From: Candidatus Kapaibacterium sp.
GTDB lineage: Bacteria > Bacteroidota > Ignavibacteria > Kapaibacteriales > HRBIN21
Assembly (NCBI GenBank): GCA_025059875.1
Contig: JANXCT010000001.1
Coordinates: 310,001 to 374,000 of the forward strand
Direction: 5' to 3'
Length of the DNA: 64,000 nt
The notes beneath the pieces were generated by a model. It searched no databases. It saw only the letters and a list, made by a program, of their open reading frames with translations, and was not told where the DNA came from. Below are positions 31,605 to 39,409 of the stretch, piece after piece (position 1 is the stretch's first letter; each line of letters starts with the position of its first letter). The position numbers and the translations under genes are program-made.

Positions 31605-32246
31605 TCACCCTTGCGGGCTCCGCAACACGTATGTGCGGTAGAGCTCGTTGATCCGCCCCCAGTGCAGGTTCGCTAGGAAATTATCCACGTAGCGAGCGCG
31701 AGCAGGACCGTCCTTGTGGTAGTATGCGTGCTCGAAGACGTCGCAGGCAATCAGCGGGATGCCGCCCCAAATAGCGCCATAGTGATGCTCATCCACCAGG
31801 ACGTTGAGGAGACGGCCGCTGTAGAGCTGGTCGTAAACTAGCAGTGCCCATCCCGAGAGTTTTGCCGACAGTGCCGTTGCCTTGAAGTCTGCTTTCCACG
31901 CCTCGAGGCTCCCGAACTCACGCTCTATGGCAGCCACGACATCGGGGCCTTTGCTGGGATCTCCATCGCCACCGAGGACCTTCCAGTAGATGTCGTGCAG
32001 CAACGCACCAGCGTGGTTCCAAGTGAAGCGACGCTTCAACTCGCCAATATGGGACCAATTCCCGTTGGCTGCGGAACGGTCAGCCTTCTCCAGCTCCTCC
32101 TCTATCCGGTTCAGTGCTGTCACATAGCCCTTGTGGTGAGTGTTGTAGTGCCAATCGGCCGTCTCTGGGGAGATGACCTGCTTGAGTAGCTCAGCCGCTT
32201 CCTCGTCCGAATACGGTCGAGGATTGAATTTCCACTGGTAGGGCAT
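31605..32246 (-). CDS. Iron/manganese superoxide dismutase
   Basis: Dismutates superoxide in the cytoplasm. 213 residues with the Fe/Mn-SOD ligands in place: His in WHYNTHHKGYV, His in FTWNHAGALLHDIYW, and Asp plus His in IACDVFEHAYYHKDG. LSGWALLVYDQ is the usual core strand. The loop after the last His (HKDGPARARYVDNF) differs a little from the textbook LDYQNRRPDYV pattern, so metal preference (Fe, Mn or cambialistic) cannot be told from sequence. Position at the end of the suf cluster, 32 bp after the A-type carrier, ties Fe-S assembly to oxidative-stress defence. Confidence 0.93.
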   Translation of the reverse strand: MPYQWKFNPRPYSDEEAAELLKQVISPETADWHYNTHHKGYVTALNRIEEELEKADRSAANGNWSHIGELKRRFTWNHAGALLHDIYWKVLGGDGDPSKGPDVVAAIEREFGSLEAWKADFKATALSAKLSGWALLVYDQLYSGRLLNVLVDEHHYGAIWGGIPLIACDVFEHAYYHKDGPARARYVDNFLANLHWGRINELYRTYVLRSPQG

Positions 32247-32278: not shown

Positions 32279-32665
32279 CTACACACCGAAGGAATGACCA
32301 CAGCCGCAGGTGCGGGTCGCATTCGGATTGCGGAAGGTAAAGCCGCGCTGCATGAGTCCGTCGGCGAAGTCCAGCGTGCAGCCCATGAGGTAGAAGGCAC
32401 TACGCTGGTCAATGAAGACTGGGATACCGTCGGCCTCTAGGATGAAGTCATTGGCTCGGGGGCGCTCGTCAAAGCCCAACACGTACGAAAAGCCCGCACA
32501 TCCACCACCACGGACCCCCATCCGCAGCCCGTAGTGCTCGGGGATCTGGTGTTCGCGCCGAATGCGGTGCAGTTCCTCTAGGGCGCGAGCGGTGATGGTG
32601 ATTGCGTCTTCCTCATCGGCACCCTCGATTGCAAAGGCCAACCGTACATCCGTCACGGTTGTCAT
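32279..32665 (-). CDS. A-type Fe-S carrier (HesB/IscA/ErpA family)
   Basis: 128 residues from the ATG at 32665, which overlaps the Rrf2 gene stop by 4 bp. The three cluster-binding cysteines are present: Cys56 in RGGGCAGFSYVLGF and Cys120/Cys122 in TRTCGCGHSFGV, i.e. the C-x63-C-x-C pattern of the family. The protein receives [Fe-S] clusters from the SufBCD scaffold and passes them to apoproteins. An N-terminal extension of about 20 residues precedes the domain. A second copy of this fold, stripped of all three cysteines, is fused to a SufT domain two genes upstream in the operon. Confidence 0.95.
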   Translation of the reverse strand: MTTVTDVRLAFAIEGADEEDAITITARALEELHRIRREHQIPEHYGLRMGVRGGGCAGFSYVLGFDERPRANDFILEADGIPVFIDQRSAFYLMGCTLDFADGLMQRGFTFRNPNATRTCGCGHSFGV

Positions 32666-33081
32666 AGCTCTACCCGTGAGTATCCGACCAACTCCGCAAG
32701 TGTCGTGGACGCCAAGAGATCGTGGAGCCGGTGCTCTAAGACGGCCAGAGGATGCCGGATCGTGCACTGGGGGAAGATGTGGCAGCGGTGCTCGTCACCA
32801 CGGCATTCTACTAGTCCGCCCCATTCTCCCTCCACGGCATCAATGACCATTGACAGCGTAATCATCTCCGGGGGCTGTAGGAGCGAATAGCCGCCGTGAA
32901 CACCGTGGTGGGCGCGAATGAGCCTAGCACGGCTGAGTTGTTGGAGGACTTTAGCAAGGAACTCGCTCGAGAGATTGTAGGCACAGGCTATTTCCCGGGC
33001 AGTTGCAATCCCCGGGTGTCGAGCTAAGTGATATAGGGCCAAGAGAGCGTATTCCACGCGGCGGGAGAGCCTCAGCATCAC
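32662..33081 (-). CDS. Rrf2-family Fe-S transcription regulator, IscR-like
   Basis: 139 residues: an N-terminal winged helix-turn-helix (RRVEYALLALYHLARHPGIA, AKVLQQLSRARLIRAHHGVHGGY) and the Rrf2 wing, then three cysteines at 93, 100 and 106 (ECRGDEHRCHIFPQC, C-x6-C-x5-C). IscR binds its [2Fe-2S] cluster through C-x5-C-x5-C plus a His, so this spacing is close to that of a cluster sensor. It lies inside the suf operon and overlaps both neighbours by 4 bp. The obvious target is the palindrome in front of sufB at 39456-39488, giving feedback control of the operon. Operator binding is an inference. Confidence 0.92.
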   Translation of the reverse strand: MMLRLSRRVEYALLALYHLARHPGIATAREIACAYNLSSEFLAKVLQQLSRARLIRAHHGVHGGYSLLQPPEMITLSMVIDAVEGEWGGLVECRGDEHRCHIFPQCTIRHPLAVLEHRLHDLLASTTLAELVGYSRVEL

Positions 33082-33425
33082 TGGTCGTAGTCTACTACAA
33101 TGCGGTCAGTGAGCGGGAGGGACTGGCATGTCAGGATGTAGCCTTGTGCTACCTCCTCCTCCGTCAGTGCGTCGTTGATCTCCATCTGCACTTGTCCTTC
33201 GACCAGCTTTGCTCGACAGGTAGCGCAGTAGCCGCTGAGGCATGAATGGGGGGCATCCAGTCCCGCTTCTATGGCAGCGTAGAGAACGTACTCGGTTGGT
33301 TTCATGCTGAAGGTGTGTGTCTCACCATACAGTCGGACGGTTACCTGGACTGTTCCGTCCGGACCAGTTGTTGGCTGTGCTGTGTTGGCGGAGTGTTCAC
33401 CTGAGGTTGGGGTTACCTCTGCCAT
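33078..33425 (-). CDS. [2Fe-2S] ferredoxin, plant/bacterial type
   Basis: 115 residues from the ATG at 33425; a TTG at 33443 is also in frame. The plant-type ligand pattern is complete: CLSGYCATC gives C-x4-C-x2-C, with the fourth Cys about 30 residues later in GYILTCQSL. The N-terminal 22 or so residues are an Ala/Thr/Ser-rich extension. In this position, between the SufT fusion and the Rrf2 regulator, it probably supplies electrons for cluster assembly or repair, like Fdx in isc operons, but a link to other redox partners is possible. Confidence 0.93.
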   Translation of the reverse strand: MAEVTPTSGEHSANTAQPTTGPDGTVQVTVRLYGETHTFSMKPTEYVLYAAIEAGLDAPHSCLSGYCATCRAKLVEGQVQMEINDALTEEEVAQGYILTCQSLPLTDRIVVDYDQ

Positions 33426-33446
33426 TCTCTCGCGAAGACTCAACTC

Positions 33447-34151
33447 TCACATCAAGCCAAGCTGGAGTCGAGCGGCCTCTGACATCATGCCCATGTGCCA
33501 TGGAGGATTGAACGTGATCTCAACGCGCACGTCCTTCACCCCCGGAACCTGACGGACAGCATCCTCTACCTGTCGCGGTAGCAGGTCTGCTACGGGACAT
33601 GCTGGGGTCGTCACTGTCATCACGATACGCACGTTCTGCTTAGGGTCAATCTTGATCTCGTACACCAGCCCCAAGTCCCAGATGTTGACGGGGATTTCGG
33701 GGTCGTAACACGTCTTAAGGGCTTCGATGATGCGGGCACGCAGCTCCCCGTCTGGTGTGGTGTTGGAGGCCTGTGACTGCGGCTGCTGTGGCTCTCGGAA
33801 GAGGAACCCACGACCGCTAGGGCCTTCGGTGTAATCGAGCGTGATTCCCATTAGGTAGAAGATGCTGCGGGCATCTGCGACGAACCGCAGGTCCTCCACG
33901 GGGAAGGCATAGTCTTCTGGGCGGACCTGGGCGTCGAAGCCGAGGGTGTACGGGATACGGCGCTGAGGGGGCCCCGTCCGGATTCCAAGCCTGACGACAT
34001 AGTGATCAGGCAGGTGGTTGAGCTCACGGAGCTGGCGGAGGGCCATGAGTGCCTGTTCGGTGATGTAGATGTCGTCGCTGGGTTCTGCACCCTCGATGAC
34101 GTGGTGAATCGGGAGGGAGTAGACCCGTTGCTCGGTCGCGGTTACGCTCAT
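33447..34151 (-). CDS. Degenerate A-type carrier domain fused to SufT (MIP18/DUF59)
   Basis: 234 residues in two domains. Residues about 18-120 align, segment by segment, with the A-type carrier encoded at 32279-32665: LGFDAQVRPED against LGFDERPRAND, and ARSIFYLMGITLDY against QRSAFYLMGCTLDF. All three cluster cysteines are missing: the first loop reads RTGPPQRRIPY and the C-terminal CxC is gone. Residues about 135-234 are a MIP18/SufT domain with TCYDPEIPVNIWDLGLVYEI and the conserved Cys184 in TTPACPVAD. SufT-type proteins help mature Fe-S proteins. The carrier half may now be a protein-docking module. I know of no described family with this arrangement, but have not searched. Confidence 0.9.
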   Translation of the reverse strand: MSVTATEQRVYSLPIHHVIEGAEPSDDIYITEQALMALRQLRELNHLPDHYVVRLGIRTGPPQRRIPYTLGFDAQVRPEDYAFPVEDLRFVADARSIFYLMGITLDYTEGPSGRGFLFREPQQPQSQASNTTPDGELRARIIEALKTCYDPEIPVNIWDLGLVYEIKIDPKQNVRIVMTVTTPACPVADLLPRQVEDAVRQVPGVKDVRVEITFNPPWHMGMMSEAARLQLGLM

Positions 34152-34154
34152 GTC

Positions 34155-34601
34155 TCACTCTTTCGTGACGGCTTCGGGGACATTTCGTAGTGCTGCCCGC
34201 AGGGTGTGCCACGCGAGAGTGGCACACTTCACGCGTGAGGGGAACTCGCGAACGCCAGTGAAGGCTGCAAGCGAACCCAAGGCTTGGAGATCTGGGACTG
34301 TTTTGCCAGCAACAACAGCATGGAACAGCTCGAAGAGGCGTTCTGCCTCCTCTACTGTCTTACCCTTGACAACTGTCGTCATCACCGAGGCTGAGGCCTG
34401 GGAGATCGCGCAGCCATTTCCTTTGAAGCGAATCTCCTCAATCTTGCCGTCCACAACGCGGAGAGCCACTGTAACATGGTCGCCGCAGAGGGGGTTGTCC
34501 CCTTCAGCCCTGTGGGTAGCTCCGGGCAAATCTCCAGCATTGCGCGGGTTTCGGTAGTGCTCTAAGATGATCTGCTGGTACAGTTCACGCAGCTCATCCA
34601 T
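34155..34601 (-). CDS. sufU: SufU-type sulfur-acceptor / Fe-S assembly protein
   Basis: 148 residues from the ATG at 34601. The three conserved metal/sulfur-binding sites of SufU are seen: [26 protein letters not shown] and [11 protein letters not shown]; the insert separating the last two Cys regions is SufU-like. In Gram-positive systems SufU takes persulfide sulfur from SufS, using zinc. It starts 8 bp before the sufS stop, consistent with that partnership. The presence of SufU rather than SufE puts this operon closer to the Firmicutes-type and other suf systems than to E. coli. Confidence 0.93.
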
Positions 34602-35856
34602 GGTTGCTCCCGAAGAATGCGATTGCTTTCCGCAGTGCTGCCACGAAGCAGTCAATCTCTGCCTGCGTGTTGTAGAGGGCGAATGAGGCCCGAGCAGTGG
34701 CGGGGACCCCGAAGAAGTCCATGACAGGCTGTGTACAGTGATGGCCAACGCGGATGGCTACCCCCTCTCGGTCTACGAAGGTGCCGAGATCGTGGGGGTG
34801 GATGCCGTCCACGACGAACGAGACGATTGCTGCCTTGTTTGGGGCTGTCCCAATGAGGCGAAGTCCGGGGATCTGCTGGAGCTGCTCGGTAGCATAATCC
34901 AGTAGCGCTTGCTCATGAGCGGAGATAGCTTCCATGCCTACGGCTTCGACGTACTCCAGCGCCGCTTTCAGACCGATCGCTCCGGCGATATTGGGGGTAC
35001 CGGCTTCGAACTTGTGAGGGGCATCGTTGTATGTGGTGCGCTCAAAGGTCACGTGCCGTATCATATCGCCGCCACCTTGGTACGGTGGGAACGCCTCCAG
35101 CCACTGGCGCTTTGCGTAGAGGACACCGATGCCAGTAGGGCCGTAGACTTTGTGCCCCGAGAAGACGTAGAAGTCACAATCGAGCTCCTGGACGTTAACC
35201 CGCATGTGGGCTACAGCTTGGGCACCGTCAAGCAGTACAGGGATGCCTCGCGCGTGGGCTATGCGGATGATTTCGTGGACGGGATTAATCGTGCCCAAGG
35301 AGTTGGATACGTGCACAACGGCTACGATTGCTGTCCGCTCTGTCAGCAGGCGCTCGTAGGCTTCTAAATCTAGCTCTCCTTGCTCGGTGATAGGAATAAC
35401 GCGCAGCCGAGCTCCTGTCTGCTCAGCAACGAGCTGCCATGGCACGATGTTGGAGTGGTGCTCCATGTGGGAGAGCACAATTTCCGACCCTTCCCGGAGG
35501 CGGATTCTCCCGAAAGCATGAGCAACCAGGTTAATCGCTTCGGTAGTGCCGCGGACGAAGACGATCTCTTTCGGAGAGGCCGCTTGGATGAAGCGCTGGA
35601 CGGTGCAGCGAGCCTCTTCGTAGAGCTCCGTAGCCTGCTCGCTCAGGTAGTAGACCCCTCGATGGACATTGCTGTTGAGTTCGGCATAGAAGCGCTGAGT
35701 CGCTTCCAGAACGATTCGCGGCTTCTGTGTCGTAGCGGCGTTGTCCAGGTATACCAACGGCTTTCCGTAGACGGTGCGCAGAAGGATTGGGAAGTCCTCG
35801 CGCCAGCGAGCAACGAGCTGTTCAGAGACACTGGTGGGGAGCGATTCTACGTTCAT
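34594..35856 (-). CDS. sufS: Cysteine desulfurase SufS
   Basis: Class II PLP enzyme that takes sulfur from L-cysteine as a persulfide. 420 residues from the ATG at 35856, which overlaps the sufD stop by 4 bp; the frame upstream (to 36063) is inside sufD. Motifs: [35 protein letters not shown], the PLP lysine in [16 protein letters not shown], and the catalytic Cys in [12 protein letters not shown]. The RVGxHC context is of the SufS/CsdA class. Downstream sufU overlaps its end. Confidence 0.96.
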
Positions 35857-37154
35857 GGGGTCACCTCTGCAGTGCGATGCGCCCACCCCTCGAGTACTGC
35901 CTCCGCTCGGTTCCGCACGACTTCGTCGGGCAGCGAGGAGATTGCTTCTGTCAGGAAGGCCTGGAGCAGAAGCGCTCGAGCCTCGGCGTGTGGAATCCCG
36001 CGACAGCGGAGGTAGAAGAGGGCCCCTTCGTCCAGGCTGCCGGTTGTAGCTCCGTGGGTACAACGGACATCGTCAGCGTAGATCTCTAACTGTGGCCGTG
36101 CGTTGACGGTAGCCTTCTCTGAGAGTAGCACGGCTCGGTGGGACTGGTAAGCATTCGTCTTTTGGGCCCCTGGGTATACGTGGATTCGTCCTGAGAAGGT
36201 GATGGTCCCTTGGTCGTCGGCCACGGACTTGTAGAGCTGATTGCTGGTACACTGCTCTACCCGGTGTTCCACCAGCGTGCAGTGATCAATGATCTGCTGC
36301 CCTTCGACCATCATTGCGCCAAAGAGCTGGGCATCAGCACCAGAGCCGGCGAGGCGAATATACAGATTGTTGCGTGTCACTGCCCCGCCCAGGGCCACGT
36401 GCCAGACGCCCAAGCGAGCATGCTGTTCCAGTAGGGCGCTGAAGGTCGTAATGAGGTATGCTGTCGTGACGTCGGTCTCCCAGACGACGAGCTCCAAGTG
36501 AGCGCCTGGACCTACCAACAGCTCAGCGGCAGCGTTCGTCAGGCCGGGATGCGTGCCCAAGCTGTGGAAGCTCACCAGGACACGCCGGTGGGCATTCGGT
36601 TCTATGCGTAGCCACAGCCGAGGGTGTGCAAGCTGCGGCTCAGTTTCTGCGGTTGTTACGATGGCAACGTGGAGTACTTCATCAGGCAAGTCGCCCGAAA
36701 GGCTCACGAATGCTGCATCGGGAGCAAAGGCTGTGTTGAGGGCTACGAAGGCCTCATCCTCAAGTGGCAGAAGGCTACCGAAGGAGGGATGGCCTTCCGG
36801 ATTCTGCAGGAAGCTCCAGCACTGCACCTGCTCGGGCAGCCTGGCGATTACCGGGAGACCGTTGAGGAGCCACACGTGGGGCGTGGGGAGTCCTTCAAGG
36901 GCAGGAAACCGGTGGAGGAGAGCGGTCGGTTCCAGAGGTGGCGGGGGGGTAAGCCGGTATGCTGGGCGCAGCAGTGGTGCAATGCTGGTGTATTTCCAAT
37001 CCTCGTGCCGTGTTGTCGGGAAGCCAAGGCGCTGGAAAGCTGCTATTGCCCGGTGGCGCAGGGGATGTTGCGGAGACCAGGGTAGGTTGTCACCATCATG
37101 TTGCCAGCGGTGGAAAGTCTCCACCAAGCGTGTCTGGAGATCGTGTGCTGCCAT
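35853..37154 (-). CDS. sufD: Fe-S scaffold component SufD
   Basis: 433 residues. The beta-helix core repeats RAV/VLV strands, and the C-terminal part reads [40 protein letters not shown] and [19 protein letters not shown], the SufD version of the SufB/D family signature. Upstream, residues about 25-60 ([14 protein letters not shown]) are the N-terminal SufD motif. It combines with SufB and SufC to form the scaffold on which clusters are built. Stop and sufS start overlap (ATGA); sufC ends 9 bp before its start. Confidence 0.95.
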
Positions 37155-37163
37155 AGCCCTGTC

Positions 37164-37946
37164 CTACGGGAGGGTCGGTAGCACAAGCTCTTCGCCTTCG
37201 GTGCGGAGCCAATCGTATCCGCGCTCTTCCAGCTCCAGCGCGAGCTCCTTGCCGCCGGAACGTATGATGCGCCCGTCGAAGAGTACGTGCACGATGTCGG
37301 GGACGATGTAGTTGAGGAGACGCTGGTAGTGTGTGATGACAACGAAGGCCCGCTCTGGAGAGCGCATTCGGTTGACTCCGGAGGCGACGATCTTCAAGGC
37401 GTCGATGTCTAGTCCAGAGTCAGTCTCGTCCAGAATTGCCAACCGAGGCTCCAAGAGCAGGAGTTGGAAGATCTCGTTCCGCTTCTTCTCGCCCCCGGAG
37501 AATCCCTCGTTGACGGCACGCTGCAGGAAGGCTGGATCAATCCCGAGCCAGCTCATGCGCTCGCGAGCAAGATTCAGGAACTGGATGGGGTCTAACGGCT
37601 CCTGCCCGCGCGCGGTTCGAATGGCATTGAGGGCAGTCCTCAGAAAGGTGGCCAGCGTGACGCCGGGAATCTCTACCGGATACTGGAAGGCCAAGAAGAG
37701 ACCCAATCGGGCACGCTCTTCTGGCTCCATCTCCAGCAGGTTCTGGCCATCGAAGAGGACCTCGCCCTCCAGGACTTCGTAACCCTCGCGGCCTGCAAGG
37801 ACCGCTGCGAGGGTGCTCTTACCGGACCCATTCGGTCCCATGATGGCATGGATCTCTCCGGGGCGAACCTCCAGGTCCACTCCCCGCAGAATCTCTTTCC
37901 CTTCAACGGCAACGCGGAGATTCCTTACACTCAACAGTGGCTGCAT
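37164..37946 (-). CDS. sufC: Fe-S assembly ATPase SufC
   Basis: 260 residues, ABC-type ATPase: Walker A MGPNGSGKSTLAAVLAG at about residues 35-51, FSGGEKKRNEIFQLLLLEPR signature and Walker B LAILDETDSGLDIDALKIV, the exact SufC style. It drives conformational change in the SufB-SufD scaffold. The N-terminus MQPLLSVRNLRVAVEGKEIL is family-like. It lies between sufB (17 bp) and sufD (9 bp) in the operon. Confidence 0.97.
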   Translation of the reverse strand: MQPLLSVRNLRVAVEGKEILRGVDLEVRPGEIHAIMGPNGSGKSTLAAVLAGREGYEVLEGEVLFDGQNLLEMEPEERARLGLFLAFQYPVEIPGVTLATFLRTALNAIRTARGQEPLDPIQFLNLARERMSWLGIDPAFLQRAVNEGFSGGEKKRNEIFQLLLLEPRLAILDETDSGLDIDALKIVASGVNRMRSPERAFVVITHYQRLLNYIVPDIVHVLFDGRIIRSGGKELALELEERGYDWLRTEGEELVLPTLP

Positions 37947-37963: not shown

Positions 37964-39409
37964 TTACCCAACACTACCCTCCAGCGAGATCGCCAGCAGC
38001 TTCTGCGCTTCTACAGCAAATTCCATCGGCAGTTGGTTGAGGACTTCGCGGCAGTAACCGTTGACGATCAGGGCCACGGCATCTTCCTCCGAGATACCGC
38101 GCTGCTGGCAGTAGAAGAGCATGTCCTCACCAATCTTGGATGTCGTTGCTTCGTGTTCGGTCACCGCTGTTGGGTTGAGCACCTCGATGTAGGGGAAGGT
38201 ATGAGCCCCGCAACTGCTCCCGATGAGTAGGGAGTCGCACTGGGTATAGTTGCGGGCGTAGTCAGCCCCGCGGAGGATGCGGACCAACCCTCGGTACGTG
38301 TTGTTACTCCGCCCAGCAGCGATGCCTTTAGAGACGATACGGCTTCGGGTGTGCCGGCCGATGTGGATCATCTTGGTGCCGGTATCTGCCTGCTGGAAGC
38401 CTTTGGTGACAGCGACTGAGTAGAACTCGCCGACGCTCCCTTCACCCTTGAGGATAACACTCGGGTACTTCCACGTGATGGCAGCGCCTGTCTCCACCTG
38501 AGTCCACGAGATCTTAGACTCCTTGCCCAAGCAGATACCGCGCTTGGTGACGAAGTTGTAGATGCCACCGCGCCCCTGAGCGTCGCCCGGGTACCAGTTC
38601 TGGACAGTGGAGTACTTGATTTCCGCTCCGTCCAACGCGATCAGTTCCACGACGGCAGCGTGGAGCTGGTTTTCATCCCGCATTGGAGCGGTGCAGCCCT
38701 CTAAGTAGCTGACGTACGAGCCTTCATCAGCAATGATGAGGGTGCGCTCGAACTGTCCGGTCCGAGCAGCGTTGATGCGGAAGTACGTGGAAAGCTCAAT
38801 TGGACAGCGCACTCCGGGCGGGACGTAGACAAAGGAACCGTCGCTGAATACAGCGGAGTTGAGGGCTGCGAAGAAGTTGTCCGTGTATGGCACCACGGAG
38901 CCGAGATACCGCTGCACCAGGTCTGGGTACTTCTGGATTGCCTCGCTCATGGAGCAGAAGATGATACCCAGCTCCGCCAGCTTTTCCTTGAAGGTTGTCG
39001 CAACGGAGGCGCTATCCAGAACAGCGTCAACAGCAACCCCAGCCAGTAGCTTCTGCTCCTCCAGTGGGATACCCAAACGCTCAAAGATGCGGCGAATCTC
39101 GGGGTCAACCTCGTCCAGGCTACTGACGTGTCGTTTCTTTGGTGCTGCGTAGTAGCTGATGGCCTGGTAGTCGATCGGTGGATAGGTAACCTTTGCCCAC
39201 CGGGGCTCCTGCATCGTCTTCCAGTGGCGATAGGCTCGTAGGCGCCATTCGAGCATCCACTCTGGTTCGCCCTTTCGCTCCCAGATGTAGCGGATGATGT
39301 CTTCGTTGAGCCCTACTGGAGCAATTTCTTCCTCAATCTCTGCAACGAAGCCGTACTTGTATTCCGATTCCGTGACCTGCTGGAGAACGTCCTCGTACTG
39401 CGCTGGCAT
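37964..39409 (-). CDS. sufB: Fe-S scaffold protein SufB
   Basis: 481 residues, full length. Characteristic stretches: [16 protein letters not shown] near the N-terminus, [58 protein letters not shown] and the C-terminal [19 protein letters not shown]-type segment. SufB holds the nascent cluster in the SufBCD complex. It is the first gene of the operon; the 120 bp upstream contain the palindrome at 39456-39488, the likely Rrf2 operator. Confidence 0.97.

Follow-up and report, generated by a model that had tools for sequence, protein, structure and literature searches.

In the suf operon of Candidatus Kapaibacterium sp. we identified a protein in which a cysteine-less A-type-carrier (IscA) domain is fused to the front of SufT. 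The domain arrangement is real, conserved and apparently undescribed, and what is new is that all nine genomes with the fusion lack the Nfu carrier domain PF01106. The front domain most likely became a docking adaptor, as judged by analogy with NfuA, and, with some reserve, we favour the reading that it is a docking module which brings SufT to its clients, to the true carrier or to both, in a protein that may replace the missing Nfu.

The fusion gene lies at positions 33447-34151 on the minus strand of the window, the stretch of 64,000 nucleotides that was analysed, and encodes 234 amino acids in a single uninterrupted frame, with its ATG start at 34151 and its TGA stop at 33447-33449. A sequence-only reading of this DNA had placed the gene and the A-type carrier gene of the same operon (32279-32665) correctly and had left their strand unstated; both are on the minus strand. 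The front domain, recognized by blastp, TIGR00049, Foldseek and VIA-align, covers approximately residues 14-121 (33789-34112) and contains no cysteine. In the alignment, its former cluster loop (residues 58-68, 33948-33980) reads RTGPPQRRIPY instead of RGGGCAGFSY. A linker (residues 122-136, 33744-33788), apparent in pN/pS and pLDDT, stands in place of the C-terminal CGCG tail of the carriers and leads into the SufT/DUF59/MIP18 domain (residues 137-234, 33450-33743), which matches PF01883, TIGR02945 and the structures 3lno, 3cq2 and 1uwd. Only two cysteines are present, C148 and C185, both within the SufT half, and C185 (33597-33599) corresponds in the sequence to the single reactive cysteine of the DUF59 motif (PMC9045647). 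When the window genome (98% complete, 1.97 Mb) was searched with the fusion, the two further matching places were the operon's own carrier and PaaD of phenylacetate breakdown, and the fusion is thus the sole SufT of this genome.

The C-terminal half was identified as FeS_assembly_P (PF01883, 3.5e-23), and the MIP18/SufT domain with a retained cysteine that the sequence-only reading had proposed is borne out, C185 being that residue. The DUF59 motif, given as DPE-X26-31-T-X2/3-C (PMC9045647), is intact in the form DPE-X29-T-X2-C, with DPE at residues 150-152, followed by T182 and C185. TIGR02945 scored 140.3 bits on the SufT domain of the window protein, its equivalog cut-off being 143.4, and in the comparison of the AlphaFold2 model by Foldseek the back half came out as DUF59 (3lno, TMt 0.87), with 3cq2 and 1uwd also matching. 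Both C148 and C185 are present in unfused SufT as well. By its sequence, the window protein belongs to the SufT/DUF59 family and has one domain more than usual: it shares with the SufT of suf operons (PF01883, TIGR02945) the whole DUF59 domain, the motif and the operon place, and differs from plain SufT in bearing the additional carrier-type domain. Membership in the long SufT family (TIGR03406) was rejected, as the N-terminal part remained unmatched and the score was 122 bits against a cut-off of 202.6.

Residues 10-130 align by blastp with the operon's A-type carrier at 37% identity (E=7e-27), and the motifs quoted earlier as showing that the N-terminal part tracks this carrier were found as described. 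The assignment to the A-type carrier family was likewise upheld by a profile built solely from cysteine-containing carriers of the fetched loci, which detected the front domain across the fusions at 1e-17 to 1e-30 (E-values lay between roughly 1e-26 and 1e-30 for the six species of the genus and near 1e-17 for the second fusion family, f8). TIGR00049 matches the domain of the window protein at 1e-9. Pfam Fe-S_biosyn (PF01521) gave E 0.014, under its cut-off, so automatic annotation would overlook the domain; the f8 version just attains that cut-off. The AlphaFold2 model of the window fusion has a mean pLDDT of 85, with values below 50 at residues 124-131; Foldseek matched its front half to IscA (1r94, TMt 0.81), and VIA-align gave Z 12.7 against the same structure. 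An IscA front and a DUF59 back were also obtained for f8. The alignments behind these models included true carriers and SufTs, biasing the models to those folds, and the structural evidence is therefore supportive and not independent.

The fold is shared with IscA, SufA and ErpA (PF01521, TIGR00049), as is an identity of about 40% to the operon's own carrier; unlike these proteins, the front domain has neither the three ligand cysteines nor the CGCG tail. The three cluster-ligand cysteines (GGxC and the CxC tail) are absent in 9/9 fusions, which extends to all of them the loss that had been claimed for the window protein. Cysteines restored in close relatives had been named as a possible refutation, and none of the eight relatives has one in this domain. 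Every fusion protein has exactly two cysteines, the same pair, both in SufT. The loop that formerly held the cysteine differs between the two fusion families and is ligand-like in neither, and the CGCG tail is missing. Because it lacks the ligand cysteines, we do not count the domain as a member of the A-type carriers. Among 51 distinct carrier domains in the loci, ten have no cysteine, nine of them fused to SufT and one standing alone; 40 of the remaining 41 have at least three cysteines, and the last is a contig-end fragment. The stand-alone domain is a cysteine-less A-type-carrier paralogue of family f5 (genome G268, L151:1438-1866, plus strand), which sits between a TrmH-like gene and uvrA. 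A search of G268 found no second carrier besides this paralogue and no SufT match.

In the window, the fusion is embedded in a block, all on the minus strand, that runs in the order sufB (37964-39409; NF008773, 5.4e-269), sufC (37164-37946; TIGR01978, 6.3e-109), sufD (35853-37154; TIGR01981, 7e-72), sufS (34594-35865; TIGR01979, 5.4e-182), sufU (34155-34601; TIGR01994, 5.1e-46), the fusion, a [2Fe-2S] ferredoxin (33078-33443; PF00111, 1.6e-16), an Rrf2-family regulator (32662-33081; PF02082, 5.1e-32), the true A-type carrier (32279-32665; PF01521, 1.1e-17; TIGR00049, 2.1e-32) and a Fe/Mn superoxide dismutase (31605-32246; PF02777, 1.7e-23), with which the conserved block ends. The stop of sufU lies three bases ahead of the ATG of the fusion, the junction reading GAGTGAGACATGAGC, and the ferredoxin gene follows within a few bases. 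The true carrier retains its three ligand cysteines (GGGC..., CGCG). The Rrf2 regulator also has three cysteines (CRGDEHRCHIFPQC) and likely provides cluster-sensing control of suf. This ferredoxin is nearest to the ferredoxin domain of PaaE, and SufT is akin to PaaD; the pair is reminiscent of the phenylacetyl-CoA epoxidase set. The order from sufB to the superoxide dismutase gene is identical in five named records of the genus (L004-L008); the dismutase gene is present in 5/5 named relatives and also in families f4 and f8. In families f4 and f7, a plain SufT occupies the operon place of the fusion, between sufU and the ferredoxin gene. In the f8 relatives, the fusion gene lies apart from the suf operon, and their sufU-ferredoxin junction contains no sufT.

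The nine fusions come from the window genome, five more species of its genus (together G000, G240, G253, G271, G294 and G295) and three genomes of f8; loci L004-L008, L113, L114 and L087-L089 carry the same fusion as the window. A search for the same fusion near suf genes in relatives, as had been suggested, thus yielded five further species of the genus, the f8 copies being outside the operon. The version in f8 shows 41-47% identity. Within the six genus members, the cysteine-less domain shows a pN/pS of 0.23 and a mean identity of 76%, close to the values of the true carrier in the genus (0.19 and 81%), while linker residues 122-135 reach a pN/pS of 0.89 and a mean identity of 15%; synonymous sites are near saturation, which makes these ratios rough. 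Their closeness to the values of the true carrier, beside a drifting linker, indicates that the domain is maintained by purifying selection. Searches of the whole order (123 genomes), of the class samples (294 and 391 genomes) and of the phylum sample (395) turned up no fusion beyond these nine, and the plasmid collection held SufT halves and zero fusions; scanning contigs with exact peptides of the window protein can overlook distant fusions, and it overlooked those of f8. An artefact or frameshift was rejected, since nine genomes share the fusion. Elsewhere in the class, SufT is in some cases preceded by a large open frame; these frames were also rejected as fusions, having no cysteine-less carrier domain inside. 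Profile matches across both halves in class family f12 turned out to be two separate genes, a carrier followed by sufT. In this family (L228-L234), the carrier gene stands immediately ahead of the separate sufT on the same strand and in the same frame, as an unfused counterpart, and all five fully read carriers have three cysteines.

We found no description of an A-type carrier-SufT fusion in the open-access literature, and none of the nine reported DUF59 architectures, S1-S9, contains an A-type carrier domain (PMC4982691). SufT is joined to an Fe-S assembly protein in the U-type scaffold-SufT architecture (S5) and to the N-terminus of Nfu in Oligotropha OCA5_c02770 (both PMC4982691), with other partner domains, and no reported SufT fusion involves a degenerate A-type carrier. 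SufE-SufT fusions (PF02657 and PF01883) occur in three f3 genomes of the same order (L105:1498-2307, L120:1498-2385 and L129:1498-2340, all on the minus strand); there, too, SufT is fused to an Fe-S assembly protein, and the partner is not a degenerate A-type carrier. SufT seems prone to fusing with Fe-S assembly partners. The closest parallel in design is NfuA of γ-proteobacteria, whose degenerate cysteine-less A-type domain is reported to target or bind clients and which is also reported to bind the carrier ErpA (PMC8593673, PMC11327457). Both proteins have an N-terminal cysteine-less A-type fold ahead of a C-terminal Fe-S maturation domain and, by analogy, probably share a docking role for the first domain. 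Unlike NfuA, which ends in Nfu with a CxxC, the fusion ends in SufT/DUF59 with one reactive cysteine, and it lies within the suf operon (in the genus) in Kapabacteria-type genomes without any Nfu. The sequence-only reading had the families, the fusion and the cysteine loss right and missed both the NfuA precedent and the absence of Nfu.

In a tree with the cysteine columns masked, the cysteine-less domains of both families form one clade (96/93). The domain is nearest to Kapabacterial carriers. With the same masking, an independent duplication of the adjacent carrier within the genus was disfavoured (AU p 0.029), with long branches in the tree, so that a single origin of the domain is likely on these sequences and stays short of proof. 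As to whether the two families, f1 and f8, go back to one fusion event, a single f1+f8 clade was not rejected in the SufT-domain tree (AU p 0.25). The RpoB tree did not join f1 and f8, their sister grouping having AU p 0.11 and thus not being excluded.

PF01106 was found in 106 of the 123 genomes of the order. It is missing from 9/9 fusion genomes and from 8/114 others (G071, G288, G303, G320, G321, G326, G331 and G352, of which G071 is rated 100% complete). The association gives a Fisher p of 1.8e-9 when counted without correction for kinship; a kinship-corrected test on independent pairs gave no significance and has no power at one or two events. The association indeed represents one or two evolutionary events. 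In three f3/f4 genomes (L217, L218 and L219), mrp is followed by nfu; in four members of the window genus, mrp is followed by rplU-rpmA-mdh, and there is no nfu there. LipA, an NfuA client in E. coli, is encoded in 9/9 fusion genomes, and Mrp in 8/9.

A docking adaptor is favoured mainly because the degenerate carrier domain of NfuA has been reported to bind clients. We propose that a Kapabacterial A-type carrier was duplicated, that one copy was fused in frame to SufT where SufT had stood in the suf operon, and that this copy then shed every cluster ligand and was retained for protein-protein contacts. Through its carrier-type surface, SufT with its one reactive cysteine would be brought to apo-clients that the carrier pathway serves, to the true carrier or to both, and a [4Fe-4S] cluster made by SufBCD would then be inserted or repaired. 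The docked partner may be the true carrier, clients or the SufBCD scaffold. The location of the f8 fusion gene apart from the suf operon speaks against this reading. The front domain would thus act as the docking head and SufT as the effector in a step that is covered by Nfu elsewhere. Pairing of the front domain with its intact paralogue, as a carrier-fold hetero-dimer that ties SufT to the holo-carrier and leaves client recognition to the carrier, is compatible with the docking-module reading and, taken by itself, unlikely. Carrier and fusion share one operon in 6/6 genus members, f8 keeps its carrier, the cysteine-less domain is nearest to Kapabacterial carriers, and NfuA reportedly binds ErpA (PMC11327457), all of which would suit such pairing; the f8 domain, however, has diverged far from its carrier, with 39-40% identity to the window carrier. 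That the front domain still holds iron or a cluster, through non-cysteine ligands or by sharing C148 and C185 of SufT or of a partner, is very improbable: these two cysteines are invariant in 9/9 fusions, but unfused SufT has them as well, the cysteine loop has been replaced by sequences that are not ligand-like, and the CGCG tail is gone. Least probable of all is a functionless relic or an error of assembly or gene model, which the Pfam miss could suggest when a single gene is viewed; the fusion is present in nine genomes from independent assemblies, with fold and sequence conserved while the linker drifts.

Only tentatively do we suggest that the fusion stands in for Nfu, SufT having taken over terminal [4Fe-4S] delivery or repair after Nfu was lost, in a second, independent trick of the NfuA type. 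SufT assists the maturation of [4Fe-4S] proteins (PMC4982691), and in S. aureus SufT and Nfu overlap genetically (PMC4982691, PMC8593673). SufT of M. tuberculosis binds SufS, SufU and clients via its reactive cysteine and carries no cluster (PMC9045647), so that, strictly speaking, SufT may be no substitute for Nfu in carrying clusters. It is also conceivable, if somewhat doubtful, that the association is coincidental, Nfu having been lost for other reasons in small, hot-spring-type genomes and the fusion merely fine-tuning SufT. The eight Nfu-less genomes without a fusion, the small number of independent events and the small genomes of the genus (1.8-2.0 Mb) would fit a coincidence; against it, Nfu is missing from every fusion genome, at 92-100% completeness, as opposed to 8/114 others, and two coincidences would be needed should f1 and f8 not be sister families, which is what the RpoB tree suggests without rejecting a sister grouping (AU p 0.11).

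The task of SufT is unsettled, as the protein assists in maturing [4Fe-4S] proteins and overlaps genetically with Nfu, yet purified M. tuberculosis SufT is cluster-free. An NfuA-type head driving SufT in genomes that lack Nfu would mean that SufT can occupy the step of Nfu, and it makes the role of SufT testable. It would also mean that reuse of the carrier fold purely for docking has happened repeatedly.
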